The notes under the pieces were generated by a model. It did no database searches, was not told the DNA's origin, and saw nothing but the letters and a program-made list of their open reading frames with translations. Positions 3,264 to 24,854 of a DNA stretch of 64,000 nt are shown here, in pieces. Origin of the DNA: Trichocoleus sp. FACHB-40 (GTDB lineage: Bacteria; Cyanobacteriota; Cyanobacteriia; Cyanobacteriales; FACHB-T130). The position numbers and the translations under genes were made by a program. Location: NCBI RefSeq assembly GCF_014695915.1, contig NZ_JACJPF010000101.1, positions 186,001-250,000 on the forward strand, in the 5' to 3' direction. The first letter of the stretch is position 1. Each line of letters opens with the position of its first letter.

Positions 3264-3270
3264 ATTTTCT

Positions 3271-5536: not shown

Positions 5537-6880
5537 TTAACTTAAAACTTCTAACTCCACAGGAATTTGTCTTGGCAATTCCACCTGAAAAATGGAGCCT
5601 TCCCCCAGCTGACTCTCTACCTTAATCTTTCCCTGCATCATCCGAACCAAGCGATCGCTAATCGCCAGCCCCAAACCAGTACCGCCCCTGTCGCGTGTTA
5701 GACTCTGATTGAGTTGGCGAAATTCTTGAAAAATGTGCTGTAAGTCGGACGGATCAATGCCAATCCCCGTGTCTTTAACAGCGATCGCTACTCGGTTATC
5801 AGACAACTCCTGCGCCTCCAGCAAGATGCTACCAGAGTCAGTAAACTTAATTGCGTTGGAGATGAGATTAACTAAAATCTGCCTCAAACGGGCTTTGTCA
5901 TTGACAACACAAGGGTTATCCAGACAACATTGAATATTCAGTTCCAACTGCTTCTGCTCTGCCAAACACTGGAGTTCTTCAACGGTTTCCTTCACCAGTC
6001 CGACTAAGTTAAATTCTGCTAAGTCAAGATCCAGCCGTCCAGCCTCCAGCTTAGAGAAATCTAGAATCTCCTCGATCATCTTCAGCAGGTGCTTACCACT
6101 GTTAAGAATGCGCTCCACCATATTTGCTTGACTTGGGGGCAAGTGATGGTTACGCTGGCGCAGCAGCAATTGGGAAAAGCCAATAATCGCGTTCATTGGA
6201 GTACGCAGTTCGTGGGACATCAACGCCAAAAACTGCGATTTCAACCGAGAAGCTTCTTGAAGTTGGAGATTTTGCAGATGATAGGCGCGAATTTTTTCTT
6301 CAGCTTCCTTGCGGGCGGTGATGTCGCGCATCATCCAGCGCAAAGAGACAACCTTATCTTGGCGATCGCGCACACTGGCGACAGTCAGAGCAGCATGAAA
6401 GCAGTTGTCATGACGCGGTTTTACAACCACCTCCCACTCACGCTCCGAGCCGCCTTCGCGCAGCCGCAGAAGTTTGGTACGAAAAGCGCGTCGTTCTTCC
6501 TGGGAGATAAAGATGATTAACGGCTTCCCCATTAAATAATTGTGCGCGATACCCAGCAAATCAGCGGCGGCGCGATTGGCTTCCCGAATTGTCCCATCAG
6601 CATCAGTCACCAGGTAGCCATCTGGCGCGAACTCGAACAACTCCTGATAGCGCTGGCGTTCCGCTTCCACTGTTTCCCGCGCCGATTCCAGTTGCTCATT
6701 TTGCTGGCGCAGTTCCTCTTCAGCGACGCGCAGTTCTTCCAACGAGGTGCGGAGTTCTTCGAGAGAGTCCGCCAGCAGTGCTGGATACTCTATTACATGG
6801 GATTCCCCAGCTCGCTGATATAAGCTACCAGCGCGGTTATACACCTTCTTCATGTGCTGGGTAAATTCGTTGGTGTTCAT
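5537..6880 (-). CDS. Cytoplasmic PAS sensor histidine kinase
   Basis: 447 residues without a membrane segment. A coiled coil (repeated EELR units, residues about 38 to 78) leads into one PAS domain (about 80 to 195), a short linker, the dimerisation/phosphoacceptor domain with SHELRTPMNAIIGF (His near residue 220), and an ATP-binding domain with LVNLISNAIKFTD, DTGIGI and GGTGLGLAI. It autophosphorylates and should pass phosphate to a receiver; none is fused. The closest separate receivers in the window are at 15137 and 32520. The last residues (ELEVLS) are encoded by a heptanucleotide repeat that also supplies the stop. Confidence 0.88.
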   Translation of the reverse strand: MNTNEFTQHMKKVYNRAGSLYQRAGESHVIEYPALLADSLEELRTSLEELRVAEEELRQQNEQLESARETVEAERQRYQELFEFAPDGYLVTDADGTIREANRAAADLLGIAHNYLMGKPLIIFISQEERRAFRTKLLRLREGGSEREWEVVVKPRHDNCFHAALTVASVRDRQDKVVSLRWMMRDITARKEAEEKIRAYHLQNLQLQEASRLKSQFLALMSHELRTPMNAIIGFSQLLLRQRNHHLPPSQANMVERILNSGKHLLKMIEEILDFSKLEAGRLDLDLAEFNLVGLVKETVEELQCLAEQKQLELNIQCCLDNPCVVNDKARLRQILVNLISNAIKFTDSGSILLEAQELSDNRVAIAVKDTGIGIDPSDLQHIFQEFRQLNQSLTRDRGGTGLGLAISDRLVRMMQGKIKVESQLGEGSIFQVELPRQIPVELEVLS

Positions 6881-7740
6881 TTTGGGAACTACAGGTTGTT
6901 TTTAAAAATAAAGGGTATAAAAGGATTCTTCAATTTTTCTTGTCTTGCTTCCAGGTTTGGGAAATAAAGCTACTTTTTTTTGTTTTCGGCCCTTTTGGCT
7001 TTTCTCTTCCTATAGAGAGATTTCCTAGAGAGAGATTAATTGTTGCGATCGCTTGTGCTTACGCGCTGGCGGAACATCACTAACCTAGATGTATTGGTTT
7101 GAATAGGGTTTCTTTTAGAGTAAGTGAATATTACTATACGCCCCTAGAGCTTTAAAGTAATCCACAATTTGGTGATTATTACAAAAACCCAAGTTTATTA
7201 AGGCATTTGTGGGATTTGGCTGGCCCTCGTCCCCATCCACGATCCTTATTCAAACCGGATTTTACTGCTTCTGGAAAGCAATGTCGGAAAAAATTCCTTT
7301 TCACCCACCAGTCATTGAATGGAGTAGTAACAAAATTATGCTTTTCATGTTAAAGCCTTTTTGAGATTCTACACGACCAATGTGTTTTAAGTTTCTGCTT
7401 ACTTTCTCAGAAAAGCCCTTGTTTATTAGCCATTTTGCCAAACTCAGCCGAAAACTAGATTTTTCGGCTTATAGCTTCAGCTATCTCACGATTCCTGGGT
7501 AAATGTTTCAAACTATTAAAACGGGTTTAAGTTTTTAGCTTGAAATTTATTTCCAGGCTCATGAATCCAAGAAGTTTATTTTTTTGTTAAGAATTTCGCC
7601 ATTTGTTACTTTCCTGTGTAATTACGTAATTTGAAATTGGTATATCCTTATAGACATAAGATTTACAAACTTAGGATGTTTATCACTCCCCTATCAGGCT
7701 GAAACTAACTAGCTCTTAAGTTATATACAAGATTTCACCT
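6881..7740. other. Long gap without recognised gene
   Basis: About 860 bp between the PAS kinase and the first structured repeat. It is AT-rich, with scattered stops in all frames. I see no tRNA, conserved ORF or riboswitch. The segment near 7230-7330 looks faintly coding but I cannot assign it. Confidence 0.4.
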
Positions 7741-7776
7741 AAGAGGATGTCCCAGAAGTGTCAAAAGTTAGTTTGA

Positions 7777-7840
7777 CCCCCCAGCCCCCGCGCTAACGCG
7801 CCGCTGCGCTAGAAAAAAGGGGGGAGAATCAAGTCTTAGT
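7777..7840. repeat. CCCCCC..GGGGGG structured repeat, copy 1
   Basis: Starts with a C run and CAGCCCCCGCGCTAACGCG, then CGCTGCGCTAG, AAAAAAGGGGGG and a tail ending CAAGTCTTAGT. The C and G runs can pair to fold the whole unit into a hairpin. Preceded by GTGTCAAAAGTTAG, which is also found before copy 3. Confidence 0.85.
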
Positions 7841-7890: not shown

Positions 7891-7984
7891 CCCCCCTAGC
7901 CCCCGCGCTAACGCGCCGCTGCGCTAGAAAAAAGGGGGGAGAATCAAGTCTTAGTCCCCCTTTTTAAGGGGGATGCAAGGGGGA
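7891..7984. repeat. CCCCCC..GGGGGG structured repeat, copy 2
   Basis: Same core as copy 1 with one C/T difference in the first arm. It continues with CCCCCTTTTTAAGGGGG and ATGCAAGGGGGAT, a second hairpin that copy 3 also has. The 50-bp distance between copies 1 and 2 suggests local duplication. Confidence 0.85.
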
Positions 7985-8045: not shown

Positions 8046-9926
8046 TTACTTTTCAGACATCCTCTCAGAAGCTTCTAGCGCCTCTTGCTCCTCCATCACC
8101 AAAATCGCTCCCTGAATTTCTCGTTGGGTGTTAACCAGTGGCGTGCAGGTAACTTTACACGCTATCGCCTTACCGCGCCGATTGATAGCATTTGCTATCA
8201 CTTCTTCATAATCACTTTCCCCAGACAAACATCTGCGGATGCACTGTTTAAGTTGCTCTACAGGTAAGCCAATATCCAGATTCAGAAAGTGCTGTCCCTG
8301 AACTTCATCGACTCGCAGCCCCCACAAATCTTCCGCTTTGTAGTTCCAAATCTGGATGTACAAATCTTGATTCACCACCACAATACCGCCTCGCAGACTG
8401 GTAAAGATAGCCTCTAAAAAGGCGTTTACTTGGTTGAGTTCTTCGGTGCGGCGGCGCATTTCATCGTTGAGAGCTTGCAATTCCTCGTTAGTGGATTGCA
8501 ATTCCTCATTCATTGTTTCTAATTCTTCATTGGAAGATTGCAGTTCTTCGTTAGTTGTTTCTAATTCTTCATTAGAAGATTGCAGTTCTTCGTTAGTCGT
8601 TTCTAACTCTTCATTTGTAGACTGGAGTTCTTCATAAGCCATCTCCAGTTCTTGGCTAGAGTGCTGCAAGTCGTCTTGCAGCCGTTTATAGCGGCTGACA
8701 TCGGTAAAAGAAATCGCAACGCCCAGGATATTGCCGCTCATCTCTACCAGGGGTGACACTAGCACCTCTAGATAGATTAATTCACCGGAGAAACTTCTCC
8801 ATTCAACCTCTTTGATGTGAACCGGACGGCGATCCGTATAAGCTTGCTCGATGCAGGAACGCAACTCTACCGGACGATAAGAAATTTCTAAATCTTGCAA
8901 GGGACGACCGAGATCCCCAGGCTTCAAGCCAAACATGGCTCTGGCTCGTTCATTTACTTGCATCAGGAAGCCATTGACATTTACCACTATCTGTGGAACT
9001 ACGGAGTTATCAAAGGCGGCTTCTCGGATGCGTGTATAACTGCCGATATTGTTCACTTTCTGGTCTTTATCAGTATCTGCCATGAATAATAAGCGATCGC
9101 GCATACCTATCTTAGGTACTGTTGTAAAAACTCGTAGCTTCAAATCTACAGGTATAAAACGATGAGCCTGAGTAACCAACATCTCAGCTTTCCCCAAAAA
9201 CAGAAAGCCGCCCTCTCGCAGGGCAAAGTGAAAGCGGTTGAGAATTTTGGCTTGAGTTTCGGCATTGAAATACATCAGGGCGTTGCGGCACACCAGCAAG
9301 TCAATGCGGGAGATGGGAGCATCGATAGTTAAGTTGTTCCGCCCAAAAATCAGGGTACGACGTAGATCCTTACGGAAGCTGTAGCCGCGTTCGCATCGCT
9401 CGAAATACTTATCTAGCATTTCTGGCGAAAGGCTCCCCACTGCCTGAAGAGTGTAACTAGCTTGGCGGGCTTGGGCGAGTGCGTCTTCGTCTAACTCAGT
9501 GGCGTAAATTTTCACTCGTGCTTTGAACTGTTCCACCCCCAGCGCCTCAGCCAGTACCATTGCCAGGGTATAAGCTTCTTCTCCGGAGGCACAGGCAGCA
9601 CTCCAGACGCGGATCGGTTCGTTGGCTTCTTTATTGGCAGTGATGAGGGGAACGATTTTTTCGCCGATGTAATCCCAGGCTTCGCGATCGCGAAAGAAGC
9701 AAGTAACGTTAATTAATAGGGTATTGAATAGGGGAATAAATTCGTCTTGATGTACTTGCAAGTAGTCTAAATAATCGTTGTAGGTTTCTATCTCTACAGT
9801 TTGCATTCTTTTGTTTACCCGACGCATCAAGCTAGAACGCTTATAACCTGTGAAATCAAAACCACGGTTGTTTTTAATGTACTCTAATAACGCTTCAAAT
9901 TCAGGATCAATGTTTAGCCGATTCAT
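8046..9926 (-). CDS. CheR-type methyltransferase with PAS domains and Glu-rich coiled coil
   Basis: 626 residues. Order: CheR N-terminal helical domain (about 10 to 65); SAM-dependent methyltransferase (about 75 to 270) with NVTCFFRD, SAACASGEEAYTLAM, YATELDEDAL and LLVCRNALMYF; a PAS domain (about 295 to 410); a coiled coil of repeated NEELQS/NEELET units (about 415 to 495); and a second PAS domain. Classical CheR methylates glutamates of chemoreceptors. Here no receptor, CheA or CheW is near, and the CheB partner is the next gene upstream, so this pair may adjust other sensors, such as the adjacent kinases. That target is inference. The coiled-coil DNA is itself a 42-bp repeat. Confidence 0.88.
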   Translation of the reverse strand: MNRLNIDPEFEALLEYIKNNRGFDFTGYKRSSLMRRVNKRMQTVEIETYNDYLDYLQVHQDEFIPLFNTLLINVTCFFRDREAWDYIGEKIVPLITANKEANEPIRVWSAACASGEEAYTLAMVLAEALGVEQFKARVKIYATELDEDALAQARQASYTLQAVGSLSPEMLDKYFERCERGYSFRKDLRRTLIFGRNNLTIDAPISRIDLLVCRNALMYFNAETQAKILNRFHFALREGGFLFLGKAEMLVTQAHRFIPVDLKLRVFTTVPKIGMRDRLLFMADTDKDQKVNNIGSYTRIREAAFDNSVVPQIVVNVNGFLMQVNERARAMFGLKPGDLGRPLQDLEISYRPVELRSCIEQAYTDRRPVHIKEVEWRSFSGELIYLEVLVSPLVEMSGNILGVAISFTDVSRYKRLQDDLQHSSQELEMAYEELQSTNEELETTNEELQSSNEELETTNEELQSSNEELETMNEELQSTNEELQALNDEMRRRTEELNQVNAFLEAIFTSLRGGIVVVNQDLYIQIWNYKAEDLWGLRVDEVQGQHFLNLDIGLPVEQLKQCIRRCLSGESDYEEVIANAINRRGKAIACKVTCTPLVNTQREIQGAILVMEEQEALEASERMSEK

Positions 9927-10022: not shown

Positions 10023-11708
10023 CTATGAATAACGACTATTCATCGTCAGATTTAACAAAGTAGTAGCGATTTCATCTAATGGGAGAATCCAATCGATACA
10101 GCCTGTATCAATGGCGTTTCCTGGCATCCCAAAACTATCTGAAGATGTTTGATCCTGCGCGATCGTTTTGCCTCCCATTTTTTTGATCGCCTGGATACCG
10201 CTGGCACCATCGCAACCTTTGCCCGTGAGGATGACGGCGATCGCTCGTTCTTTAAAACTAGCTGCTACTGACTCAAATAGCAGATCGGCTGAGGGGCGGA
10301 CAAAGTGTACCAATTCGGTTTTTGATAGGGAGATGGTAGCGTCTGGGTTAACCAGCAGATGATGATTGGCAGGAGCGATGTAGACTCCTCCGGGACGCAA
10401 TTGATCTCCCTCTTGTGCCTGCTTAACCGCCAGAGTTATGCGATCATCCAAGATTTCAGATAGTTGGCTGGCACGGTGGGGTTCTAGGTGCTGCACTATT
10501 GCGATCGCTGCCGGAAAGTTTTCCGGTAAGGCAGACAGAAGCTCAGTTAAGGCTTTCAACCCTCCAGCTGAGGATGCGATCGCCACTATGGGGAATGGGG
10601 ACTGGGGATTGGGGACTGGGGATTGGGGAATTGTTACTCTCCCACTCTCTCCCTCTTGCCCGTTTTTGTTGTTTACTCCGTTCCCATTCTGCCCATTTTC
10701 CACTTGCTCCCCATCTCCATCTTTAAGGCCTTTTAACAGCACTTGCCGGATAACGGCGGCGTTTTGCTGTGCCTCCTGTTCCTGCTGGGCAAAGCGTTGG
10801 GCTGACTTGGTGTGGTTGCGATCGTGTGCGCCTTTAAACATCCGATGGGCAAGAGCCGCCCGCTCCTCCAGCGCTCGGAGTCCGCTCCACAGTGCGGTTT
10901 CTAGCGCCTCTGATTGCTCCGCTAGGAGAGTTTCCCCAGAAAAGGCGTGACCTGTGCGACACCGGAAGCGAAGCAGTTTTCCGTCACCCAGTTCCCACAA
11001 TGCGCCGCCGCAATCTGGACAGGCAAAACCAGAGGGTGTCCCTGGTCTCTCATATTTTGAGTGAGCAGCCATATCTAATTCCACCAGATCGGTTTCTATT
11101 TCCATCTGAGCAGATGCAGAACCTCCTTGTCTCTCTTCCACTTGCTCTTGAGCCAAGCGTACTAAGAAGGGAGCGATCGCATTCAAAGGCAAAATATGAT
11201 CTACATCTACATTCTCGATAGCGCTGCGCGGCATTCCACTAAACAGGGAATCGTCGGGATTTTGAACAATTGCTATACCGCCTCGGCTTTTCACTGCTGC
11301 TAAACCAGCAGTACCGTCGTCAAGATTTCCTGACAGCACCACACCAATTACTCGCCGCCCGTAGTGCTGTGCTGCCGTGCGAAACAGAGGATCGACTGCT
11401 GGTCTGTGACCGTTCTCTTTGGGCCCACGCGCTACCTGGACGCATCCACGTTTGACCAGTAGGTGATAATTTGGCGGTGCTATGTATATCTGCCCGTGCT
11501 GAATTGGCGCTCCGTCTTCGGGGTGCCAGGCTCTCAAGGTGCCGCAACGGTTCAGGATATTTGGCATCAAGCTGGTGTTTTGGGCTGGAACGTGAAGAAC
11601 TATAAAAATTGCAGCTGGCAGATCAGTCGGCAAAGCCTTGACCAGCTTTGACAGAGCTTCTACTCCACCTGCGGAGGCACCAATAACAATTATGTCGTGA
11701 CCGGGCAT
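10023..11708 (-). CDS. Double CheB methylesterase (two catalytic domains, no receiver)
   Basis: 561 residues. CheB domain 1 (about 1 to 190) has GASAGGVEAL, VLHVPA and NLDDGTAGL. A middle region (about 225 to 260) contains a zinc-ribbon-like CPDCGG and FRCRTGHAF. CheB domain 2 (about 370 to 555) has SSAGGLKAL, VQHLEP and GCDGASG. Both copies keep the Ser, His and Asp of the methylesterase triad. The receiver that normally gates CheB is missing, so activity must be controlled another way. The linker between the halves includes a Pro/Gln-rich insert encoded by heptanucleotide repeats. The gene lies 96 bp upstream of the CheR gene, in the same direction; a two-gene operon is likely. Confidence 0.88.
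   Translation of the reverse strand: MPGHDIIVIGASAGGVEALSKLVKALPTDLPAAIFIVLHVPAQNTSLMPNILNRCGTLRAWHPEDGAPIQHGQIYIAPPNYHLLVKRGCVQVARGPKENGHRPAVDPLFRTAAQHYGRRVIGVVLSGNLDDGTAGLAAVKSRGGIAIVQNPDDSLFSGMPRSAIENVDVDHILPLNAIAPFLVRLAQEQVEERQGGSASAQMEIETDLVELDMAAHSKYERPGTPSGFACPDCGGALWELGDGKLLRFRCRTGHAFSGETLLAEQSEALETALWSGLRALEERAALAHRMFKGAHDRNHTKSAQRFAQQEQEAQQNAAVIRQVLLKGLKDGDGEQVENGQNGNGVNNKNGQEGESGRVTIPQSPVPNPQSPFPIVAIASSAGGLKALTELLSALPENFPAAIAIVQHLEPHRASQLSEILDDRITLAVKQAQEGDQLRPGGVYIAPANHHLLVNPDATISLSKTELVHFVRPSADLLFESVAASFKERAIAVILTGKGCDGASGIQAIKKMGGKTIAQDQTSSDSFGMPGNAIDTGCIDWILPLDEIATTLLNLTMNSRYS
10588..10633. repeat. GGGGAxT heptamer repeat inside a coding region
   Basis: Alternating TGGGGAC and TGGGGAT heptamers. 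On the coding strand they specify IPQSPVPNPQSPFP in the linker between the two CheB domains. This is the short tandemly repeated type known from cyanobacteria; the frame is kept. Confidence 0.85.
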
Positions 11709-12344: not shown

Positions 12345-15029
12345 TTACTTACTAACGTTGCGAGCCAACACTACTTCAAAAGTAGACCCCTGTCCCAGCT
12401 TACTCTCTACTGATATTTTACCGTGCATTAATTGTACTAATGAGCTAGTGATGGCAAGTCCCAAACCTGTACCAGCATACCTTTTGGAGAGAGATTGATC
12501 GACTTGCCGAAATTCTTCAAAAATATGGTTTAGGTTTTCCTGGGCAATGCCGATACCTGTATCTTTAACAGCGATCGCAACTTCATCAGGAGAAACTTCC
12601 CGCAGCTTGACCCATACACCACCGAAATCGGTAAACTTAATCGCATTGGAAAGAAGATTTACCAAAATTTGCCGCACGCGAGCGCTATCGTTTATTATTT
12701 GCGGGTTAGCTAAATCTGCCTGAACCTCTAAACTCAGATGCTTCTCCGAAGCAAGCGATCGCAATTCATCAGTTGTTGCTCTCACTAGATGCACCAGGTT
12801 AAATTCGTCTGGTTTGAGTTGCAGTTTTCCGGCTTCAATTTTCGATAAGTCGAGAATGTCATTGATTAGCGTTAACAGGTGTTTGCCATTGCTGAGAATC
12901 CGTTGCACCATGTCTTCTTGGTGCTGGGTAAGCTTATTTTGCCGCTGGCGCAACAGTAACTGAGAAAACCCAATCACAGCATTCATTGGTGTCCGCAGTT
13001 CGTGGGACATGGTGGCGAGAAACTGCGATTTCAATCTAGCAGCTTCCATTAATTGCAGGTTTTGCAGTTGAATCTGAGTTGAAAGGCTTTCCAAATCCCG
13101 GTTTTGTTGAGCCAAGATTTCATTCTGGTAAGCTAAACGTTCCTCTCGCTCCTCTAAAGTATTAATCAGACGAGCATTATTGATTGCGATCGCTGCTTGT
13201 TCTCCCACCGCCGCCAGCAGAAATCCGTCTTCCTGGTCAAAAGCATGAGTGTCTTCCCAGTTACCAATCGCCAGCACTCCTAACCGTCCCGCCTGCGCCG
13301 ACTCAATCGCCACCACATACATCGAAGCAGCCATCTCGGAACCTTGGCTGTGCCCCTCTTTCCCTCTTTCCTCGTCCTGAATCAGCTGGGAAACTCCTGT
13401 CAAAAACACCTGAGAAAGCAATCCTTCCTCTGAACCAAAGCCATCTTCTAGCTGCAACTTGTCCGTACCTATTCCCGCCGTGACCGTCAGCACCAAGCGA
13501 TCGCATTGGGGATTTTGCAACATTATGAAACAAAACTGAGCGCCTGCGATCGCATCGCAAACTGCTTGCACCATCACTCGCAACAACCCTGGTAAGTCAG
13601 ACAGACGCTGGTTAAGTAAATTTGTCAGTTGCTGTAGCGTCCGCAGTTGTTGCTGTTGTTCCCCCAGAATGATAATTGCCCTACGTAAATTATTACTCGC
13701 TTCCTGCGCTTCCCGGTATAGTTGCCCATTTTCCACCGATAAGGCAGCACGACGGGCGAGTTCTTCCGCCAGCGCTAAGTCTGATACGTCGTAGGCTGCT
13801 TTTACTTGGGTGCAAACCAACGAAATCGCGCCGATTGCCCGCCCGCGCACCAACAGCGGCACTACTATATAAGAGCGGAAGCCCATATCCCGAACTATTT
13901 GCAGGTGTTCGGCATCGCGGGTAGCGGCTACCAATATGTCGTCGGTAATTTCTGGAACTAATTCCGAGTTGCCAGTACGCAACACTTTCATCGCCGGATG
14001 TTCTCCGTTGATATCCGGCGGGTAGCGGTGCTTTAGCTGGCGCACCAAATTTTCTTGGCTGGGATCTGAAACAGCCGCCCCCAGCCGACGCACTAAGCCA
14101 TCTGCTTCCAAAATGTCTATTAGGCACACGTCTGCTATGTGAGCCACCACCAGTCGCGCCAGAGTTTCCATAGTTCCCTGGTAGTCTAGGGAAGCAGAGA
14201 GGACGGCACTAGCCTCAGCCAGGAAACGCTGCCTTTCTAAAGCTTGCTTGCGCTCCGTAATGTCGCTAATAATACCGGACATCCGGAACGCTTTGCCTGT
14301 GCTATCCCGTTGAGCTTTGCCTTTGGCAATACAGTAACGATATTCCCCGGAGACATGGCGCAGTCTAAATTCCACATTACATTCACGCTCTAGGTCTAGG
14401 TGAGCGGTGACGATCTTGATAATCCCCTGTCTATCTTCTGGATGTATTAGTTGACAAAACGCATCGTAAGTGCTTACAAACCCATCGCCGGACAAGCCAG
14501 TGATTTCAAAACAGCGCTCATTGCAGTAAATTTGGTTTCTACTGATATCCCAGTCCCAAATCCCGTCGTTTGATCCTTCTAGAACAAATCGGTAGCGTTG
14601 TTCGCTTTCTTGAAGTAGCTGATTGGCTGTCTGGGCAAGCGTTTCAGCCCGATTTAGCCGAATGGCATTTCTGAGCGACCGGGCGAGACTTTCTGGGGAG
14701 ACTTTGCTTTTAGAAATATAATCTGATGCACCTGCTTTCATCACCTCGACGGCGATTTGTTCGTCTCCTTGGCCAGTTAATACTACCAGGGCGGCTTTAA
14801 ACCCAGACGAGCGGATATCTTGCACCAAGCTCAGTCCGTCACCGTCGGGGAGGCGATAGTCGAGAAAGACGCAGTCAAAATCATCACGACGTAAAGATGC
14901 GATCGCTTCTTGACAATTGATTGCTTCCACCACCTCCATTTTTATGCCAGCAGTTTTTAGCGATCGCCGCACCGCCATTCGATCTACTTCATCGTCATCA
15001 ACTATCAGTATCTTTAAAGTTTCTTCCAT
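12345..15029 (-). CDS. Receiver-PAS-GAF-GAF hybrid histidine kinase
   Basis: 894 residues, soluble. Order: receiver (1 to about 125) with ILIVDDDEVDR, the phospho-Asp in FLDYRLPDGDG and the SKSK-type lysine; PAS (about 140 to 265); GAF 1 (about 285 to 430, LARLVVAHIADVCLIDIL); GAF 2 (about 475 to 615); coiled coil; phosphoacceptor domain with SHELRTPMNAVIGF; ATP-binding domain with LVNLLSNAIKFTD, DTGIGI and GTGLGLAI. The N-terminal receiver suggests that it is fed by an upstream kinase before its own autophosphorylation. Neither GAF shows an obvious chromophore Cys at the usual place, so I do not call it a phytochrome. The receiver gene 15137 reads into it. Confidence 0.88.
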   Translation of the reverse strand: MEETLKILIVDDDEVDRMAVRRSLKTAGIKMEVVEAINCQEAIASLRRDDFDCVFLDYRLPDGDGLSLVQDIRSSGFKAALVVLTGQGDEQIAVEVMKAGASDYISKSKVSPESLARSLRNAIRLNRAETLAQTANQLLQESEQRYRFVLEGSNDGIWDWDISRNQIYCNERCFEITGLSGDGFVSTYDAFCQLIHPEDRQGIIKIVTAHLDLERECNVEFRLRHVSGEYRYCIAKGKAQRDSTGKAFRMSGIISDITERKQALERQRFLAEASAVLSASLDYQGTMETLARLVVAHIADVCLIDILEADGLVRRLGAAVSDPSQENLVRQLKHRYPPDINGEHPAMKVLRTGNSELVPEITDDILVAATRDAEHLQIVRDMGFRSYIVVPLLVRGRAIGAISLVCTQVKAAYDVSDLALAEELARRAALSVENGQLYREAQEASNNLRRAIIILGEQQQQLRTLQQLTNLLNQRLSDLPGLLRVMVQAVCDAIAGAQFCFIMLQNPQCDRLVLTVTAGIGTDKLQLEDGFGSEEGLLSQVFLTGVSQLIQDEERGKEGHSQGSEMAASMYVVAIESAQAGRLGVLAIGNWEDTHAFDQEDGFLLAAVGEQAAIAINNARLINTLEEREERLAYQNEILAQQNRDLESLSTQIQLQNLQLMEAARLKSQFLATMSHELRTPMNAVIGFSQLLLRQRQNKLTQHQEDMVQRILSNGKHLLTLINDILDLSKIEAGKLQLKPDEFNLVHLVRATTDELRSLASEKHLSLEVQADLANPQIINDSARVRQILVNLLSNAIKFTDFGGVWVKLREVSPDEVAIAVKDTGIGIAQENLNHIFEEFRQVDQSLSKRYAGTGLGLAITSSLVQLMHGKISVESKLGQGSTFEVVLARNVSK

Positions 15030-15553: not shown

Positions 15554-15633
15554 TTTACCTTCCATATTTTAAAGATAATTGAAACTGGTAATTGGGTGCA
15601 TCCTCCCCCAGTCTCCAATCACTTACTTTTTGG

Positions 15634-18399
15634 CTATTTGGGCCAGGTGAAATAGAAAGTTGCTCCTTGCCCTAATTGAGATTTCAGCCAAATTGTTCCT
15701 CCTTGCTGTTCAATGATTTTCTTAACAATAGCTAGACCAACACCAGTATTTTCTACCTTGTCTCGCGCTTCCAGTGTCTGAAACATCACGAAAACTTTTT
15801 CATGATATTGGGGAGCGATCCCATTTCCGTCATCTGCGACAGCAAATTCGTAGCACGTTTCTCTATTCTGGACAGATATTGTCACATTTCCCTCTGACCG
15901 AGGGTGGTGTTTAATACAGTTGCTCAGCAGATTAGCAAACACTTGCTCTAAGAGCAAGCGTCCTGTAAATAACGTTGGCATTTCCGGCTCTATGGTAATG
16001 GTAAAGGTTGGAGGAGCTGCCAAGGAGCCGATAATATTTGCCAGCAAGGTTGCTACGTTTACAAGTTCTGGTGGTTTGCTCACCCGTCCGACGCGGGAAT
16101 ACTGCAAAAGTGCATTAATTAGTGCTTCCATGCGATGAACGCGCCCGCGCAGTAAATCCATGTTACGGCGCGTTTCCAGATCGAGTTTATCTTCGATATC
16201 TTCTTCAATCCAAGTCGAGAGATTTGCGATCGCTCTCAATGGTGCCTTCAAGTCATGGGAGACAATATAAGCAAACTGGTCGAGTTCTTTGTTGCGTTTC
16301 TCTAGGTCAGCGTTAGTCTGGGCGAGAATACTACTCAGACGGGCTAATTCCTCCGCACGGGCTAGCAAATCTTCTTCAGCTTTTTTGCGCTCGCTGATGT
16401 CAACACAAGAGCCAATATAGCCAGCAAAAGTGCCATCGGGTGTAAATCGCGGTCTTCCTGTATCCAAAACCCAGCGATACTCCCCATCTGCACGCAAAAG
16501 ACGGTATTCCATCTGGAAATTTTCGCGGACATGAAAAGCCGTCATGTAGGTATCCAAGCAACGTTGGAAATCATCTGGATGCACTCCTTGAGTCCAACCG
16601 TGGCCCATTTCTTGCTCCAGAGTCCGTCCTCCGAAGGTAAGCCAACTTTGATTGAAGAAATTACACAACCCATCTGTCCCCGACATCCATAACAACACTG
16701 GCGCACTATCTGCCATTGTGCGGAAACGTTCTTCGCTTTCTTGCAATGCTGCTTGCGATCGCTTACGCTCAGTCAGTTCTTGTTCCACTGTTTGGAACAG
16801 ACGAGCGTTGTCAACTGCTAAAGCAGCACGACGAGCCAGTTCAGAGGCAAATATGAGGTCAGATTCGTTGTAGTGACGATTAGACTCAGCCCAGACAAAG
16901 GTAATCGCCCCCAGTGTCCGCCCGCGAGCTACCAACGGTACGATCATTGCAGATGTGTAGCCAATTTGCCTGAGCAGTTCCAGTTGTTCTGCGTCGCGGG
17001 CTACCTCCACCAGGAGCGAGTCGGGAATCTCTGGGTATAATTCTGCCTGACCAGTACGCAGCACCTTCGCCAGACCATACGGCTCGTTCATGTCGGGGGG
17101 GTAGCGTTGATGCAATTGTTGCGCCCATTCCACCTTTGACGGGTCTACATGGATAACTGCCAAGCGGCGGGGTGTCTGTTCCTCATCAAGGATATCGACG
17201 CAGCACCAGTCAGCCAGATGGGGGACGGCGAGGTGAGCCAAGGTTTCCAGGGTGGTTTGGTAGTCAAGGCTGTTAGAAAGTAGGGTGCTAGCCTCGACAA
17301 GAAACTGCTGTTGTTCTTGCGATCGCTTATTCTCGGTGATATCCATGCACACGCCGAGCATTCTGACTGCATTTCCTGTTTCGTCGCAAAAAACCTGACC
17401 TTTTCCCCCAATCCAGCAGATATTGCCGTTAGGCGAAATAATCCGGAATTCAATGGCGTAATTGGTTTTCTGCTCTACAGATTGCGCGATCGCTTTCTCT
17501 ACAAACTCCCGGTCTTCCGGATAAATCTTTTCAACAAAATCTGCAAAAGTGCCGCTTCCAGTAGCTATAGCATTCATAGGTTCCAGCGTATCCGACCACG
17601 CCAGCTCCCCTGTCAGAATGTTCCAGTCCCAAATCCCCATTACTCCCGCGTCTAGGGATAACCGCAGTCTCTCCTCACTTTTACGCAGCGCTGTTTCCGT
17701 CTGCTGTCGCTCAGTAATATCTAAAATCAGAGACAGCACTGAAACGACATTCCCCGACTCATCTACTAAAGCCGAGTTGTACCACTCGCAGTAGACAATC
17801 GAGCCATCTTTTGTATAGTTCCGGTTGTGGGAAATATTACGCCGTTCGCTGCCATTGAGTAACCGGGATACTACCCCATTGACAGATGCCAAATCTTCTG
17901 GTAATACGAATTTCCATTCGCTCGGATGTTTACCCATTAGTTGGTCGCTTTCCCATCCGAATAGGGTTTCGGCTTGCTGCGACCACTTGATCACCCGAAA
18001 GTTACTATCCCACTCGATGACTGCTAGTGGCGAGTTTTCTAGATGAAAGCTGAGTATCTGGAGTGGATCTTGTGTAGTTTCTTGTTGTTGGGTAGGGATA
18101 GCGCGATCGCCTTGCAGCTTTTGGCGATAAGTATTAACCACACTCGCTACGCTTGCTGTCGCCAAAGTAGTTTTACTTTCGCGACTTCTAGTTGCTTGAT
18201 GCTTTTTTACCTGCAAGAAAGCGGCTAAAATAGAGGTCAACATTCCTCTTTTGATGCCACTATACAAGACACTAATTAAAATAGCCATAAAAATTAAGCT
18301 AAAGTAGCCATTTTTATCGCTATTTATATTGAGAGTGTCTACTAGCAGTTTAATTAGCAAAGCTAGTATTACCGCTACTATAGGGACACCGTAACGCAT
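15634..18399 (-). CDS. Membrane-anchored PAS-PAS-GAF-PAS histidine kinase
   Basis: 921 residues. The N-terminal 65 residues hold about three hydrophobic helices (GVPIVAVILALLIKLLVDTL, FSLIFMAILISVLYSG, then MLTSILAAFL), resembling half of a DUF4118/KdpD-type membrane domain. Then PAS (about 120 to 235), PAS (about 240 to 360), GAF (about 370 to 520), PAS (about 545 to 665), and a kinase core with FAYIVSHDLKAPLRAIANL-type phosphoacceptor and VADDGNGI, TGVGLAIVKKI. This phosphoacceptor type is found in phytochrome-like kinases that signal to Rcp1 receivers, matching the receiver gene directly downstream. The kinase at 18767 shares its C-terminal half and probably arose by duplication. Confidence 0.88.
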   Translation of the reverse strand: MRYGVPIVAVILALLIKLLVDTLNINSDKNGYFSLIFMAILISVLYSGIKRGMLTSILAAFLQVKKHQATRSRESKTTLATASVASVVNTYRQKLQGDRAIPTQQQETTQDPLQILSFHLENSPLAVIEWDSNFRVIKWSQQAETLFGWESDQLMGKHPSEWKFVLPEDLASVNGVVSRLLNGSERRNISHNRNYTKDGSIVYCEWYNSALVDESGNVVSVLSLILDITERQQTETALRKSEERLRLSLDAGVMGIWDWNILTGELAWSDTLEPMNAIATGSGTFADFVEKIYPEDREFVEKAIAQSVEQKTNYAIEFRIISPNGNICWIGGKGQVFCDETGNAVRMLGVCMDITENKRSQEQQQFLVEASTLLSNSLDYQTTLETLAHLAVPHLADWCCVDILDEEQTPRRLAVIHVDPSKVEWAQQLHQRYPPDMNEPYGLAKVLRTGQAELYPEIPDSLLVEVARDAEQLELLRQIGYTSAMIVPLVARGRTLGAITFVWAESNRHYNESDLIFASELARRAALAVDNARLFQTVEQELTERKRSQAALQESEERFRTMADSAPVLLWMSGTDGLCNFFNQSWLTFGGRTLEQEMGHGWTQGVHPDDFQRCLDTYMTAFHVRENFQMEYRLLRADGEYRWVLDTGRPRFTPDGTFAGYIGSCVDISERKKAEEDLLARAEELARLSSILAQTNADLEKRNKELDQFAYIVSHDLKAPLRAIANLSTWIEEDIEDKLDLETRRNMDLLRGRVHRMEALINALLQYSRVGRVSKPPELVNVATLLANIIGSLAAPPTFTITIEPEMPTLFTGRLLLEQVFANLLSNCIKHHPRSEGNVTISVQNRETCYEFAVADDGNGIAPQYHEKVFVMFQTLEARDKVENTGVGLAIVKKIIEQQGGTIWLKSQLGQGATFYFTWPK

Positions 18400-18766: not shown

Positions 18767-20968
18767 CTAACTCATAACTTCTAACTCCTCGCTTCTTGGC
18801 GGAAATTTAGACCAGGTAAAGCGAAATGTCGATCCTTGACCTATTTGAGATTCCAAGCGGACGCTTCCCCCTTGAGTCTCGACAATTTTTTTAACTAGAG
18901 ATAAACCAACGCCAGTGTTTTCCGCCGTATCGCGGGCTTTTAAGGTTTGAAAAATCTCAAAAACTTTCTCATGGTACTCGGTAGCAATTCCTGGCCCATC
19001 ATCTGCTACGGCAAATTCGTAAAAGTTGCCTTGGTCTTGAACAGATATTGTCACCGTTCCATCGGCTCGATCGTGGTGTTTGATGGCGTTGGAAAGCAGG
19101 TTGGCAAAAACTTGTTGTAAGAGCAGGCGTTGGGTGGAAAGAGTAGGCATTCCTGGTTGTACGCTGATGGTAAAGGCGGGTGGGGGTGCTAGGGAGTCTA
19201 CGATCTCTGCTAGTAAGTTAGCAACGTCCACTTTTTCAACTGATGCTTTGACTCTTCCGACGCGGGAATAATGGAGGATGCCATCGATCAGTGCTTCCAT
19301 ACGATGAACGCGCGATCGCAGTAAAGTTATATTGCGCTGGGTTTCTTCGGATTCACCAGGTAAATCTTCTTCAATCCAAGTGGAGAGGTTAGCGATCGCT
19401 CTCAAGGGTGCTTTCAGGTCATGGGAGACAATATAAGCAAACTGGTCGAGTTCTTGGTTACGTTTTTCTAGGGCGGTGTTAGTTTGAACCAAGATAGAAC
19501 CAAGTCTGGCTAATTCCCCTGCACGCGATCGCAAATCTTCTTCAGCTTTTTTGCGGTCGGTGATGTCGCTGTTAATTTCCAGAATTGCTAACGGTTCCCC
19601 GTCATCATCCACCTGCAACGACCAACGACTAGAAACAGTAATCTTGCTTCCGTCGCGCTTGGTGTGAACAACTTCACCCTTCCAATAACCTTCTTCTTGG
19701 AAGACTTCTTGAATTTCTTCTAACGGTTGCGGAAATTCGGTTTTGAATAAGGCGTGGCTCAATTGACCAATGGCTTCTTCTTTTCTCCAGCCATAAATCC
19801 GCACTGCACCCTGATTCCAATAGGTAATCAGATCGTGGCGATCGCGCACAATAATCGTATCATTTGCCAAGTCGAGCAGAGTCGCTTGTTTTCGCAGAAT
19901 TTCCTCCGACTGTTTGCGCTCCGTAATGTCGCGGACAATCCCAATTAACAGGTGCTGATTGTCCAATCGCATTTCGCTAAAGACTAACTCCATCGGGAAC
20001 ACTGTCCCATTCTGCCGCTGTCCCACCGTCTCTTGCAGCCGCCGAATTTTGGAATAGTCATTGCCAACAAAGCGGTTTAGAGTTTGGACACTATCACCGC
20101 TAAAGTATTGTGCCAGCAAGAGTTTTAGGTTTTTGCCAACAACTTCCTCTGGTTCATAACCAAACATCATCCCCGCAGCTTTATTAAAAGACTCCAGGTG
20201 TCCCTGCTCATTGATAGTAATAATCCCATCAACCACATTATCCAAAATTGCTTGGATGCGAATGTTACTTTCGCGCAAGCCAGTTTGCCGTTCTGCAAGT
20301 TCCCGGTCTAACTGGTCAAACAGATACACAGCTGCCAGCGAGCCTAGCACCCCAAGTATGACCGTAGTGCCTAGTACGCCTATGGTCATTACCTGCTGCT
20401 GGTTTAATTCCTGTTTGCGCTGAGAAAGCAGTATCTCCTCTTCCCTAGAAAAATCAGTAATTTGCCGACGAATGGCATCCATAGTGATTTTGTCTTGAGC
20501 ATCCAATCTGAAGGTGTCAGTGGCTCCTTGTTGGATGGCTCTTAACCTAGCCACATTTTGGTTCATAATGTCGATTTTTCGCTGGGAAAGCGATTGAATC
20601 TCTCGGACTCGTTGTTGCTGTTCTGGTTTATCTTTGACTAGCTGACTCAGTTCCTCAATAGTGTGAGGAATGCTAGCCATCCCAGAATCATAGGGTTGCA
20701 GATATTCAGGGCGATTCGTCAGAGCATAACCCCGAACTCCAGTTTCGGCATTCACTAAAGCTGTGAGCAAGCGATTGGCATACAAAAGCACCTTTTGAGT
20801 ATGGTCTACATACTGTTGCGCCACTGCGTTACTGCGTTGAAGTGCCGCAAACGCTACTACTGAAGTTAAAAGACACAAAATGGGAATGGCGATAATCAGC
20901 GCACCCCGCCGACGCACGGGTAAGTCTGACCAGAGAAGACGCAGTTGTTGAGTTCCAGAGGCGGTCAT
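18767..20968 (-). CDS. CHASE3-PAS-PAS sensor histidine kinase
   Basis: 733 residues. Transmembrane helix 1 (about 20 to 45), periplasmic CHASE3 domain (about 50 to 190) with the hallmark NAETGVRGYALT, transmembrane helix 2 (about 195 to 220), PAS (about 235 to 355), PAS (about 360 to 475), a coiled coil, then SHDLKAPLRAIANLSTWIEE and an ATP-binding domain with VADDGPGIA and TGVGLSLVKKI. It senses an unknown extracytoplasmic cue. Its kinase core is close to that of the 15634 kinase. The final residues EELEVMS and the stop are encoded by GAGTTAG-type heptamers that continue past the gene. Confidence 0.9.
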   Translation of the reverse strand: MTASGTQQLRLLWSDLPVRRRGALIIAIPILCLLTSVVAFAALQRSNAVAQQYVDHTQKVLLYANRLLTALVNAETGVRGYALTNRPEYLQPYDSGMASIPHTIEELSQLVKDKPEQQQRVREIQSLSQRKIDIMNQNVARLRAIQQGATDTFRLDAQDKITMDAIRRQITDFSREEEILLSQRKQELNQQQVMTIGVLGTTVILGVLGSLAAVYLFDQLDRELAERQTGLRESNIRIQAILDNVVDGIITINEQGHLESFNKAAGMMFGYEPEEVVGKNLKLLLAQYFSGDSVQTLNRFVGNDYSKIRRLQETVGQRQNGTVFPMELVFSEMRLDNQHLLIGIVRDITERKQSEEILRKQATLLDLANDTIIVRDRHDLITYWNQGAVRIYGWRKEEAIGQLSHALFKTEFPQPLEEIQEVFQEEGYWKGEVVHTKRDGSKITVSSRWSLQVDDDGEPLAILEINSDITDRKKAEEDLRSRAGELARLGSILVQTNTALEKRNQELDQFAYIVSHDLKAPLRAIANLSTWIEEDLPGESEETQRNITLLRSRVHRMEALIDGILHYSRVGRVKASVEKVDVANLLAEIVDSLAPPPAFTISVQPGMPTLSTQRLLLQQVFANLLSNAIKHHDRADGTVTISVQDQGNFYEFAVADDGPGIATEYHEKVFEIFQTLKARDTAENTGVGLSLVKKIVETQGGSVRLESQIGQGSTFRFTWSKFPPRSEELEVMS

Positions 20969-21638: not shown

Positions 21639-22361
21639 ATGAGCCAAATTCGCGTAGCTTTAATTGAAGACCACGACCTAACCAGGGTCGGGATACGAAC
21701 AGCGCTGCAACAGCGTGGGGAAATAGAATTTGTCGGCGAGGCAGCAAATGCCGCCGAAGGTCTGAAGTTACTGGAAGCGACCAAGCCAGATGTCGCCATT
21801 GTCGATATTGGTCTGCCAGATATGGACGGGATTGAATTAACAAGAACGTTCAAAGAAGCGCAGGCAGCATTGGAAGACCCAGCTAACACGAAAGTATTGG
21901 TGTTGACCTTGCAAGATGACGAAGAAGCAGTGCTGGCGGCATTCGCAGCAGGTGCAGACTCGTACTGCATGAAGAATATCAGTTTTGATAAATTGCTCGA
22001 AGCGCTGCAAGTGACTCACGAAGGCAACGGATGGATCGATCCAGCGATCGCCCGAATTGTCTTAAGGCAGACCAGAGCCAGTCAAGCAGGAGGCGATTTA
22101 GCACCTGCATCAAAAACGGTAATAATTCATGCTACAGAGCCAGAATACTCTCAGCTAATAGAAGCTTACCCCCTGACAGAAAGGGAATTGGAAGTTCTCC
22201 AACTGATTGTTGAAGGCTGTAGCAATGCCGCGATCGCCGAAAAACTATACATCACCGTAGGAACCGTAAAAACCCACGTCCGGAACATCTTAAATAAGCT
22301 GTGTGCCGATGACCGCACCCAAGCAGCTGTGCGTGCATTGCGCTCTGGTTTAGTAGGATAA
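21639..22361 (+). CDS. NarL/FixJ-type response regulator
   Basis: 240 residues. Receiver (1 to about 135) with VALIEDHDLTRVGI, the phospho-Asp in VAIVDIGLPDMDG and MKNISFDKL; linker; LuxR-type helix-turn-helix (about 172 to 236) with LTERELEVLQLIVEG and VGTVKTHVRNILNKL. It is a transcription factor, activated by phosphorylation, and the only DNA-binding output of the sensory block. It lies head to head with the CHASE3 kinase, 670 bp apart, so that kinase is a plausible donor. The receiver has an extra stretch (EAQAALEDPANT) before the fourth strand. Confidence 0.92.
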   Translation: MSQIRVALIEDHDLTRVGIRTALQQRGEIEFVGEAANAAEGLKLLEATKPDVAIVDIGLPDMDGIELTRTFKEAQAALEDPANTKVLVLTLQDDEEAVLAAFAAGADSYCMKNISFDKLLEALQVTHEGNGWIDPAIARIVLRQTRASQAGGDLAPASKTVIIHATEPEYSQLIEAYPLTERELEVLQLIVEGCSNAAIAEKLYITVGTVKTHVRNILNKLCADDRTQAAVRALRSGLVG

Positions 22362-22670: not shown

Positions 22671-22710
22671 ATTCCACAATCCACAATCCACAATCCACAA
22701 TCCACAATTG
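22671..22710. repeat. TCCACAA heptamer array
   Basis: Five consecutive CCACAAT heptamers ending 10 bp before the ATG at 22721. They occupy the leader where the ribosome-binding site should be. Confidence 0.85.
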
Positions 22711-22720
22711 GTATGAGCCG

Positions 22721-24421
22721 ATGAGTCAGGCAGAAGGGAGCAAACTCAAACTGATGGTGGTTGATGATGAGCATGACAACCTAGATTTGCTGTATCGAAC
22801 ATTCCGCCGAGATTTTCGAGTCTTCAAAGCCGACAGTGCCGCCTTGGCGCTGCAAGTATTGGAGGCAGAAGGGGAAATGGCTGTGATTATCTCTGACCAG
22901 CGAATGCCCCAGATGAACGGCACGGAATTTTTAAGCAAAACAGTTGAGCGCTTCCCTGATACAATTCGCATCCTGTTAACCGGATATACGGATGTTGAAG
23001 ACTTGGTGGACGCAATTAACTCAGGTCAGGTATTCAAATACATCACCAAACCCTGGAACCCAGAGAACCTGAAAGCAGTAGTTCAACAAGCTTCAGAAAC
23101 TTACAAGGTTCTAAAGCAAAGAACAAACGAACTGCGCCGTGCTTTGCGACGAGAAGAACTGTTTAATGCAGTGACAACTGCCATTCGGGAGTCACTTGAC
23201 TACAACAGTATGCTGCAAACGGTTGTCAATACAATTGGTCAGACATTTGAGGCAAGCCGTTGTATTCTCAGACCAGTAGAAGGCGATCGCTTGACGAGCG
23301 AAGCCTTCTCATACCAAAATCCTAATGCCGCCGCTAGTCAATTCCCTAATATTGATTCCGCCCTCGAAGCTGCCCTTGAGACTCACCAAACACAATTGGC
23401 TCAAGGCGAAGAACAAGGAACGCAATACACCCATCTAGTTGTACCCCTGATCTACCAGCAACAGCAGCAATCAGTTCTCTGCCTCTATCAGGACACTCAA
23501 AATGGGATGTGGGAACCCCAAGAAGTGCAGCTAATTGAAGGTGTTGCCGAACAAGCAGCATTGGCAATTTCTCAGGCAAAACTCTACCAGCGCACGCAAC
23601 AGCAGGCTCAGCAAATGCGCGCCGAACTAGAAGTAGCACGGCAAATCCAAAACAACCTACTGCGGCAAAGCTGGCCAGAAGTAGAAGGTCTTAAGGTACA
23701 AGCCTGTTGCGTAGCAGCTAGAGAAGTGGGGGGTGATTTTTTTGAAGTATATTTCCATCCCCAAGGCGACATCTGGCTGGCAGTAGGAGATGTATCTGGT
23801 AAAGGCGTACCAGCCGCGTTATTTATGGCTAGTGCGATTTCCGTGTTGCGCCGGGAACTGGCTCAAGAAATTTCTCCGGAGCCAGATGTCGTAATGCGGA
23901 ATTTAAACAGTATTATGTCAGATGATTTAGTCAGCACTAACTGCTTTATTACAATGGTGCTGGCTCGTTATACCCCAGCAGATCATACTCTCGTCTATGC
24001 CAATGCTGGTCACATCTATCCCCTCATATGGTCGCATCAAGCAGTGTTGCAACAATCAGCACAACTTGAGGACTCGGCACTTGAGCCGAATTTCCTGAAG
24101 ACTCGTGGCATTCCTCTAGGGATTCTACCAGTCTGGAAAGCCAAGCAGGGACAGGTAACTTTAAATGCAGGGGAAATATTCTTGCTGACGAGTGACGGGA
24201 TCACCGAAGCGACTGTCACTCAGTCGAGCGAACCGGGTCAATCGGATGTTGGTGGGAGCTTGGAACCCCAGGGTAGTATGCTGACACAAGATGGTCTTTG
24301 GAAACTTCTTAGGCAAGAGCCAGCGCCTTTCAATTTGACCAACTTATTAGCCCGGATTCGAGAACAGACGAACAACGTTCAGGAAGACGACCAAACTATA
24401 CTCTCTCTGGAGGTTCTTTAA
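22721..24421 (+). CDS. Receiver-GAF-PP2C (RsbU-like) phosphatase
   Basis: 566 residues. Receiver (1 to about 125) with LMVVDDEHDNLDLL, phospho-Asp in VIISDQRMPQMNG and KYITKPW; a GAF domain (about 150 to 300); a short coiled coil; a SpoIIE/PP2C catalytic domain (about 320 to 566) with GGDFFEVYF, VGDVSGKGVPAALFMA and LLTSDGITEA, which bind the two metals. It dephosphorylates a Ser/Thr phosphoprotein, typically a STAS anti-sigma antagonist. It is followed 4 bp later by an RsbW-like ATPase, so the two form one unit. No STAS gene is visible in the window. Confidence 0.92.
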   Translation: MSQAEGSKLKLMVVDDEHDNLDLLYRTFRRDFRVFKADSAALALQVLEAEGEMAVIISDQRMPQMNGTEFLSKTVERFPDTIRILLTGYTDVEDLVDAINSGQVFKYITKPWNPENLKAVVQQASETYKVLKQRTNELRRALRREELFNAVTTAIRESLDYNSMLQTVVNTIGQTFEASRCILRPVEGDRLTSEAFSYQNPNAAASQFPNIDSALEAALETHQTQLAQGEEQGTQYTHLVVPLIYQQQQQSVLCLYQDTQNGMWEPQEVQLIEGVAEQAALAISQAKLYQRTQQQAQQMRAELEVARQIQNNLLRQSWPEVEGLKVQACCVAAREVGGDFFEVYFHPQGDIWLAVGDVSGKGVPAALFMASAISVLRRELAQEISPEPDVVMRNLNSIMSDDLVSTNCFITMVLARYTPADHTLVYANAGHIYPLIWSHQAVLQQSAQLEDSALEPNFLKTRGIPLGILPVWKAKQGQVTLNAGEIFLLTSDGITEATVTQSSEPGQSDVGGSLEPQGSMLTQDGLWKLLRQEPAPFNLTNLLARIREQTNNVQEDDQTILSLEVL

Positions 24422-24425
24422 ATAA

Positions 24426-24854
24426 ATGAGAACTGAGCTGCACGTACCAAGTGACTTAAAGTTTTTGACGATTGTCGAAAGCTGGCTGCTGGGCTGTTTG
24501 GAAGTTGAGCTGACCGACTCGGTTGATTGGCCTCGTCAATCGAATCGCTTACGATTGGCTTTGGTGGAGGCATACTCAAACGTGGTGCGTCATGCTCATA
24601 GAGATCAACCAAATCTGCCAGTGTTGATTCGTCTGGAGCTGAAAGAGCGGGATATTGCTCTAGAAATTTGGGATCACGGTCAGGGATTTGATTTATCAAC
24701 TTATCTACCACCCAACCCGGATGATAAACAGGAAAGCGGCTATGGTTGGTTAATTATGAACCGACTGATGGACAGGGTGGAATACCGCTTACAGGTAAAT
24801 GGTCGCAACTGTCTGAAGCTGGAAGCAAGCTTACCAGAGGCAACTAAAGCTTAG
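24426..24854 (+). CDS. Anti-sigma-factor-type serine kinase (RsbW-like ATPase)
   Basis: 142 residues of the GHKL ATPase fold: N-box RLALVEAYSNVVRHAH, G1 box IWDHGQGFD and G2 region GYGWLIMNRLMD. Proteins of this kind phosphorylate a STAS antagonist and hold a sigma factor or another target. The ATG lies 4 bp after the phosphatase stop. With the phosphatase it forms two of the three arms of a partner-switching module. Confidence 0.88.
   Translation: MRTELHVPSDLKFLTIVESWLLGCLEVELTDSVDWPRQSNRLRLALVEAYSNVVRHAHRDQPNLPVLIRLELKERDIALEIWDHGQGFDLSTYLPPNPDDKQESGYGWLIMNRLMDRVEYRLQVNGRNCLKLEASLPEATKA

Follow-up and report, generated by a model that had tools for sequence, protein, structure and literature searches.

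The window analysed here is a 64,000-nucleotide stretch of the cyanobacterium Trichocoleus sp. FACHB-40 (positions 186001-250000 of contig C4 of a 6.38 Mb genome), which contains a block of ten signalling genes centred on a CheR methyltransferase with PAS domains (CheR-PAS) and a double CheB methylesterase (CheBB). In the direction of transcription, the minus strand carries the histidine kinases HK4 and HK3, a lone receiver, the kinase HK2, CheBB, CheR-PAS and the kinase HK1, and the plus strand carries a LuxR-type regulator, a receiver-GAF-PP2C phosphatase and an RsbW-like ATPase (Table 1). The protein domains were assigned by Pfam, which bears out the four histidine kinases, the CheR with PAS domains, the double CheB, the receiver-GAF-PP2C protein and the RsbW-like ATPase named in a first-pass annotation; of the two receivers or regulators listed there the lone receiver stands, but the open reading frame (ORF) 21482-21970(-) is spurious, as it matches no Pfam family and overlaps the opposite-strand receiver-GerE gene 21639-22361(+), which is the true, LuxR-type regulator. 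CheR-PAS possesses both the CheR_N and the S-adenosylmethionine-binding CheR domain (Pfam; alignment to 5ftw and 1bc5), and is separated by 96 bp from CheBB and by about 1.2 kb, a gap without any ORF of 90 amino acids, from HK1. The two catalytic domains of CheBB (about 11166-11690 and 10056-10586) are accompanied by no receiver for phosphorylation by CheA (Pfam), which suggests a brake that is not set by CheA. No methyl-accepting chemotaxis protein (MCP), CheA or CheW was found by Pfam within the ten-gene block. The core of the block is probably a CheB/CheR adaptation module that works independently of MCPs, and CheR-PAS itself is predicted to be its likeliest substrate.

Table 1. Genes and features of the signalling block, in window coordinates.
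Feature	Position	Strand	Basis and remarks
HK1: N-terminal coil, PAS, HisKA, HATPase	5537..6880	-	Pfam; frequent cyanobacterial neighbour of CheR-PAS (31/38 loci)
CheR-PAS-helix-PAS methyltransferase, 626 amino acids: CheR_N, CheR catalytic, PAS, 100-residue helix, PAS	8046..9926	-	Pfam, AlphaFold2, orthologues
Tandem heptads EEL[EQ][ST][ST]N, CheR-PAS residues 432-484; candidate methylation helix	8475..8633	-	Conservation and published consensus (PMC6829392, excerpted text)
CheR catalytic domain, residues 73-261	9144..9710	-	Pfam CheR, E 1.3e-50; aligns with solved CheR structures
Double CheB methylesterase (CheBB), without receiver domain	10023..11708	-	Pfam; genome matches; solved CheB
HK2: receiver-PAS-GAF-GAF-HisKA-HATPase kinase	12345..15029	-	Pfam
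Single receiver domain protein	15137..15565	-	Pfam; orthologues 80-89% identical, adjoining HK2 relatives
HK3: PAS/GAF histidine kinase	15634..18399	-	Pfam
HK4: CHASE3-PAS-PAS histidine kinase	18767..20968	-	Pfam
LuxR-type response regulator, receiver and GerE	21639..22361	+	Pfam; at most 1.5 kb from PP2C in 18/30 loci
Receiver-GAF-PP2C (SpoIIE) phosphatase	22721..24421	+	Pfam; orthologues
RsbW-like serine kinase/anti-sigma ATPase, HATPase_c_2	24426..24854	+	Pfam; adjoins PP2C in 30/30 loci

The constituents of the block recur together in related genomes more often than expected by chance. CheR-PAS was found near full length in 13 of 40 relatives (own genome included; one match lies in two pieces and several have a stop inside the matched stretch), and in 54 of 291 genomes of a sample of the class, with partial matches in two more. 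From the fetched loci 40 orthologues of 600-830 amino acids were collected, none being dropped for a missing heptad motif (see below). CheB is located on the same strand, upstream and within 1.5 kb of CheR-PAS in 31 of these 40 loci. Among 38 loci of 6-20 kb, several of which are cut by contig ends, 30 contain CheB and 31 an HK1-type kinase, 29 of the latter on the CheR strand; labels such as HK1-type or ANTAR are approximate, as they derive from small home-made profiles and the best match among our own reference proteins. The order varies between HK1-CheB-CheR and CheB-CheR-HK1, a variation that speaks for selection acting on the set. CheR-PAS and the receiver-less CheB form a conserved pair of genes, mostly accompanied by an HK1-type kinase in cyanobacteria. 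Variants of the arrangement were also seen: three loci (L057:9013-10023(-), L058:8540-9454(-) and L067:8820-9464(-)) have between CheR-PAS and HK1, where the window has a gap, an additional gene similar to the helix-PAS end of CheR-PAS, and at L062:8861-11323(+) CheB is fused to CheR-PAS-PAS in a single frame of 820 amino acids.

The remaining genes follow a different pattern. An orthologue of the receiver-PP2C protein is present near full length in 49 of the 63 genomes with CheR-PAS (in a fiftieth, G152, the match is in two pieces and on a contig other than that of CheR-PAS), and only in four of the 49 (G000, G002, G003 and G024) is it found at most 20 kb from CheR-PAS, although some linkage may be hidden where the contigs of draft genomes end. 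A single, tightly kept ten-gene unit is thus rejected, since PP2C is not close to CheR-PAS in the other 45. In G004 the breakpoint is located between CheBB and HK2, and HK2-receiver-HK3-HK4 are found together with LuxR-PP2C-RsbW some 140-150 kb away. RsbW directly follows PP2C in all 30 loci examined from the 49 genomes; this pair is conserved as a unit in its own right. The block is composed of two joined modules: module A, with CheBB, CheR-PAS and HK1, and module B, with the other kinases, the receiver, the LuxR-type regulator, the receiver-GAF-PP2C protein and RsbW. HK2 and its receiver stay near CheR-PAS in G020 and G029, and the module boundary is therefore not sharp everywhere.

A run of tandem heptads, NEEL[EQ][ST][ST], is located between the two PAS domains of CheR-PAS. 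This region contains the most conserved 30-residue stretch of the protein (0.977 over the 40 orthologues): pairs of orthologues differ at 6.2% of amino acids in residues 432-484, compared with 34.9% in the catalytic domain and 48.5% and 42.6% in the PAS domains. Four-fold synonymous divergence is alike in all regions (0.65-0.70; helix 0.663 and catalytic domain 0.652), and the low protein difference therefore reflects selection on the protein, not DNA homogenisation. With the asparagine set as heptad position a and the leucine as d, conservation amounts to 0.982 (a), 0.996 (b), 1.000 (c), 0.986 (d), 0.975 (e), 0.954 (f) and 0.800 (g), position c being invariant across all seven heptads; in the coil of HK1, e and f reach 0.37 and 0.48. 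Runs of at least three such heptads were found in 38 of 1652 reading frames (1.11 Mb; loci over a 10-kb limit, which left out the shorter L065), one per locus and all at the place of CheR-PAS.

In the published consensus, [ASTG][ASTG]xx[EQ][EQ]xx[ASTG][ASTG], methylation typically takes place at heptad position c (PMC6829392; here, as for the other papers cited, according to the excerpted text), and methylation sites seven residues apart share one accessible face (PMC2535941). The helix of CheR-PAS matches five of the six constrained positions in five heptads (E-E-x-x-[ST]-[ST]), whereas no full consensus match and only one five-of-six match, in HK3, were found in HK1-HK4 (HK1, HK2 and HK4 have none). 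Better candidate sites are therefore located inside CheR-PAS, which weakens the earlier proposal that the neighbouring PAS and GAF kinases are methylated. When the MCPs of the che operon and of contigs C126 and C57 were compared (the C44 MCP was left out), full matches were found in the first (two, overlapping) and the second (two), and none in the third. The AlphaFold2 model of CheR-PAS displays one helix at residues 411-510 (mean predicted local distance difference test, pLDDT, 83.2).

A loop insertion in the beta-subdomain is the mark of pentapeptide-dependent CheR proteins. In CheR-PAS this loop is shorter than in the Salmonella CheR 1bc5 (gaps of 3 and 1 residues), which, given the general meaning of the loop, fits a substrate without a pentapeptide tether; such CheR features exist (PMC7698151). 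The window CheR-PAS clades with other unfused CheRs (support 0.909), and in fused CheB-CheR proteins the helix is preserved at an overall identity of 27-30%; in L041 and L043 the CheB-CheR protein runs, by eye, into a kinase-like H-box, in L043 straight from the helix.

The distribution of the family was followed by a scan of named genomes that gave at least 588 stretches, of which the best 80 were kept. Among these 80, the unfused CheR-PAS-helix-PAS form (49-60% identity) was found in cyanobacteria, actinobacteria, one member of the Gemmatimonadetes and one Planctomycetales metagenome-assembled genome (MAG), and relatives with about 30% identity in many phyla. MCP and CheW were searched for in the genomes of 43 of the 80 loci, selected by us and not at random: 28 had an MCP over the cut-off, 27 had CheW, and 15 had neither, two of these with one sub-threshold MCP match each. 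Eight of the 15 possess the unfused, full-length form (49-55% identical), namely an Umezawaea, two mycobacteria, an Actinomycetospora, a Streptomyces, a Nonomuraea and two possibly incomplete MAGs; one of these eight genomes is the Mycolicibacterium senegalense chromosome, whose title calls it complete. The CheB/CheR-PAS pair, or its fused relative, thus persists in genomes without CheW and without an MCP over the cut-off.

In the taxonomic order of M. senegalense, CheR-PAS was found in 51 of 200 genomes; for 40 of these loci, stretches of about 8-12 kb were fetched and the neighbours assigned with home-made profiles. CheB is encoded on the CheR-PAS strand in 37 of the 40 loci (on either strand in 39), and three or more tandem heptads, with M allowed at g, are present in 39; neither MCP nor CheW was found in the 40 loci with these profiles. 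The neighbours are of other kinds: a STAS-ATPase protein, with both halves covered, lies near CheB/CheR-PAS in 19 loci (14 on the CheR strand), GAF-ANTAR-type proteins in 21, and one or the other in 36, M. senegalense itself having the order CheB, STAS-ATPase, CheR-PAS. When neighbours were checked with Pfam, ANTAR was recognised in three, in one of them below the cut-off, and STAS likewise in three; for the ATPase half, HATPase_c was weak and below the cut-off in L174 and absent in L176. An AlphaFold2 model of the STAS-ATPase, of low confidence (mean pLDDT 63.3; three sequences), matches STAS structures of the RsfB/SpoIIAA type and, in the fold search, also SpoIIAB (E 3.9e-4). The STAS-ATPase neighbourhood is an independent link of CheB/CheR-PAS to partner switching. 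The first-pass annotation had pictured the whole block as ending in a partner switch, and this part of its view finds backing in the actinobacterial order; in the window's own lineage PP2C is rarely linked to CheR-PAS, and the own genome has 12 STAS matches, none of them on contig C4.

The ATPase half of these proteins has a peculiarity of its own. The N-box glutamate four residues before the asparagine, a residue known from GHKL kinases, is missing in most listed STAS-ATPases of mycobacterial type (among them L174:7159-7920(+) and L176:7128-7940(+)), but is retained in RsbW of the window and at several other loci. Its loss suggests that kinase activity may have been lost in the mycobacterial proteins.

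The statement that the ten genes come without a chemotaxis core holds for the block and fails for the genome, which has 4 MCPsignal, 7 CheW, 3 CheR and 5 CheB profile matches. A complete che operon (CheR-TPR, CheW-CheW, MCP, CheA-REC and REC-CheB, REC being a receiver domain) is located at C4:135-143 kb, ending about 43 kb before the start of the window, and MCP and CheW matches are found elsewhere. An operon of the kind that the first-pass annotation had named as a refutation of its view is therefore present. Yet this operon carries its own CheR and REC-CheB, and therefore has no need of those of the block. The idea that the CheB and CheR of the block work apart from chemotaxis is thus supported by the self-supplied operon and by the relatives in genomes without CheW or an MCP over the cut-off. 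All CheR and CheB matches are confined to contigs C4, C6 and C33, the last with a lone CheB; contigs C57 and C126 have clusters with MCP and CheW matches and no CheR or CheB match. The C6 locus, L021:3953-13979(-), encodes a hybrid kinase with ten HAMP domains and three receivers, a CheR, a lone CheB and a further hybrid kinase, and is the second CheB/CheR pair of the genome without an adjoining MCP.

For the MCP-independent module, the probable explanation named at the outset, the following mechanism is proposed. The PAS domains would sense a cytoplasmic cue and thereby shift the helix of a CheR-PAS dimer from one state to another. The CheR domain would methylate the position-c glutamates on its own helix or on that of its partner, and CheB would strip the methyl groups, resulting in an adjustable set point or gain as in chemoreceptors. 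The state of the helix may then be read by the partner encoded alongside: HK1 in cyanobacteria, a STAS-ATPase or GAF-ANTAR protein in actinobacteria, and a fused kinase in some relatives. HK2-HK4 and PP2C-RsbW constitute a second module that adjoins the first in this lineage, and wiring between the two may or may not exist. A further-reaching reading, which we put forward tentatively and as a possibility short of an even chance, is that CheR-PAS is a self-adapting sensor with its own chemoreceptor-like methylation helix, forming with CheB a complete device that requires no MCP, CheA or CheW and that different phyla have connected to kinases, to partner switches or to antiterminators.

Several observations weigh against the MCP-independent adaptation module. 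The full six-position consensus has no match in CheR-PAS, where the first small residue is replaced by E or Q, and no methylation data for any member of the family were found in the literature searched. The helix is missing in 4 of the 24 CheRs of the window CheR's clade and in several shorter CheR relatives, and its conservation could instead serve partner binding; the orthologues are kin, so that the counts of conservation do not stand for independent cases. In the HK1 coil, too, positions b (0.86) and c (0.81) are above a (0.71) but below d (0.94), and the AlphaFold2 model of CheR-PAS is a monomer with a predicted template-modelling score of 0.44 that lends no support to the placement of the domains. 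The partners are not constant either, the HK1-type kinase being missing from 7 of the 38 cyanobacterial loci and a kinase profile match occurring in only 3 of the 40 loci of the M. senegalense order. Finally, of the nine non-cyanobacterial genomes with the unfused form that were tested, one, the Planctomycetales MAG of L167, also has MCP and CheW, and no cyanobacterium with CheR-PAS was found to lack MCPs (63 of 63 tested have them); service to MCPs is therefore conceivable in this organism.

The alternatives are not mutually exclusive. That the pair serves the MCPs of the cell, for example those of the MCP and CheW clusters on C57 and C126, would agree with the MCPs of all 63 cyanobacteria and with the want of CheR and CheB on these two contigs, but the relatives that persist without CheW and without an MCP over the cut-off, the restriction of near-full-length CheR-PAS to 54 of 291 genomes of the class, and the lack of a full consensus site in the MCP of C57 (though that of C126 has two) make it distinctly improbable. 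A possible, on the whole doubtful, alternative is that CheR-PAS and CheB methylate and demethylate a neighbouring kinase, mainly HK1, in the way RsbM acts on the S-helix of RsbK (PMC4574943). The frequency of the HK1-type kinase, its N-terminal EEL-rich coil with one EELRTS, and the CheB-CheR proteins L041 and L043 that run into an H-box speak for it; the single incomplete site in the four kinases, an HK1 coil that is not specially conserved at the exposed positions e and f, and the rarity of kinase profile matches in the actinobacterial loci speak against it.

The two remaining alternatives concern the extent of the system and the nature of the helix. It is unlikely that the whole block is one stress pathway, with CheR-PAS and CheB tuning a kinase that signals through the receiver-GAF-PP2C protein to RsbW: the parts list does resemble RsbK-RsbM-RsbY (PMC4574943), kinases lie between CheR-PAS and PP2C in the four linked genomes, and the STAS-ATPases of 19 of 40 actinobacterial loci point the same way, but linkage in so few of 49 genomes, the distance separating the modules in G004 and the lack of a STAS match on C4 do not. 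A helix that only relays signals structurally from PAS to PAS, with the targets of CheR and CheB elsewhere, appears rather unlikely; the PAS-helix-PAS layout of the AlphaFold2 model and the incomplete consensus agree with it, whereas a mere relay does not explain why the exposed positions b and c are at least as conserved as the core positions a and d, with e and f nearly so, when e and f of the HK1 coil are not.

Part of this picture is already known: CheR action outside MCPs (RsbM), CheR-TPR fusions (PMC3447774) and rsbM homologues in mycobacteria. In Bacillus cereus, RsbM methylates the S-helix of the sensor kinase RsbK, and the RsbK-RsbM-RsbY system (PMC4574943) resembles the block in having a methyltransferase for a non-MCP sensor, which in the block is predicted, together with a receiver-PP2C protein and an RsbW-type partner switch. 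HK1 adjoins CheR-PAS as an RsbK-type kinase would, and has no five-of-six consensus match. However, RsbM is described in that paper as having no cognate methylesterase, whereas the block has a dedicated double CheB; in addition, PAS domains and a helix are built into the CheR of the block, and in most genomes the phosphatase is not linked to it. The CheR-TPR/FrzF and ACF pathways likewise combine a CheR bearing an extra regulatory domain with non-canonical outputs (PMC3447774, PMC2535941), but FrzF methylates the MCP FrzCD, and the CheR-TPR of the own genome is a separate protein of the che operon. The CheB-CheR fusions of L041, L043, L045, L047 and others in the genome scan join CheB to the same kind of CheR and NEEL helix in a single polypeptide, unlike the window, where CheB, CheR-PAS and HK1 are separate genes; no functional study of such fusions was found in the literature searched, which most subscription journals fall outside. 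RsbK/RsbM homologues are reported in mycobacteria, where CheR-type genes have been proposed to act in sigma-F activation (PMC8115616); the excerpted description, by which alone we compare them, mentions no CheB or STAS-ATPase gene beside them, and M. smegmatis has no RsbM homologue (PMC10950880). Within the same searched literature, no paper was found that studies the CheR-PAS family, that treats its helix as a substrate or that describes an arrangement of CheB, STAS-ATPase and CheR-PAS.

Some further observations concern the surroundings of the pair. A GC-rich element of 21 bases occurs three times, exactly, on the minus strand of the window (7790-7810, 7905-7925 and 33343-33363), with no exact triplicates expected in shuffled sequences. 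Two copies lie in the gap between CheR-PAS and HK1, by eye inside near-identical repeats of about 60 bp, and among 324 loci the element was matched only in two loci of the own genome that cover the same place. The genes bordering the block, at window positions 2749-5415, encode a cyanate lyase, a member of the NADH dehydrogenase 49-kDa family and a third product that, from its sequence, we take to be that of rsmH; an rsmH-like gene also adjoins HK1 in L060, L063 and L067.

Chemoreceptors are the main known case of sensory adaptation by methylation. The question of the substrate is directly testable with a few purified proteins, and should the proposed role of CheR-PAS hold true, the label "chemotaxis protein" would mislead for a large family, and reversible glutamate methylation would be a means of tuning with wider use in bacterial signalling, including that of mycobacteria and streptomycetes.

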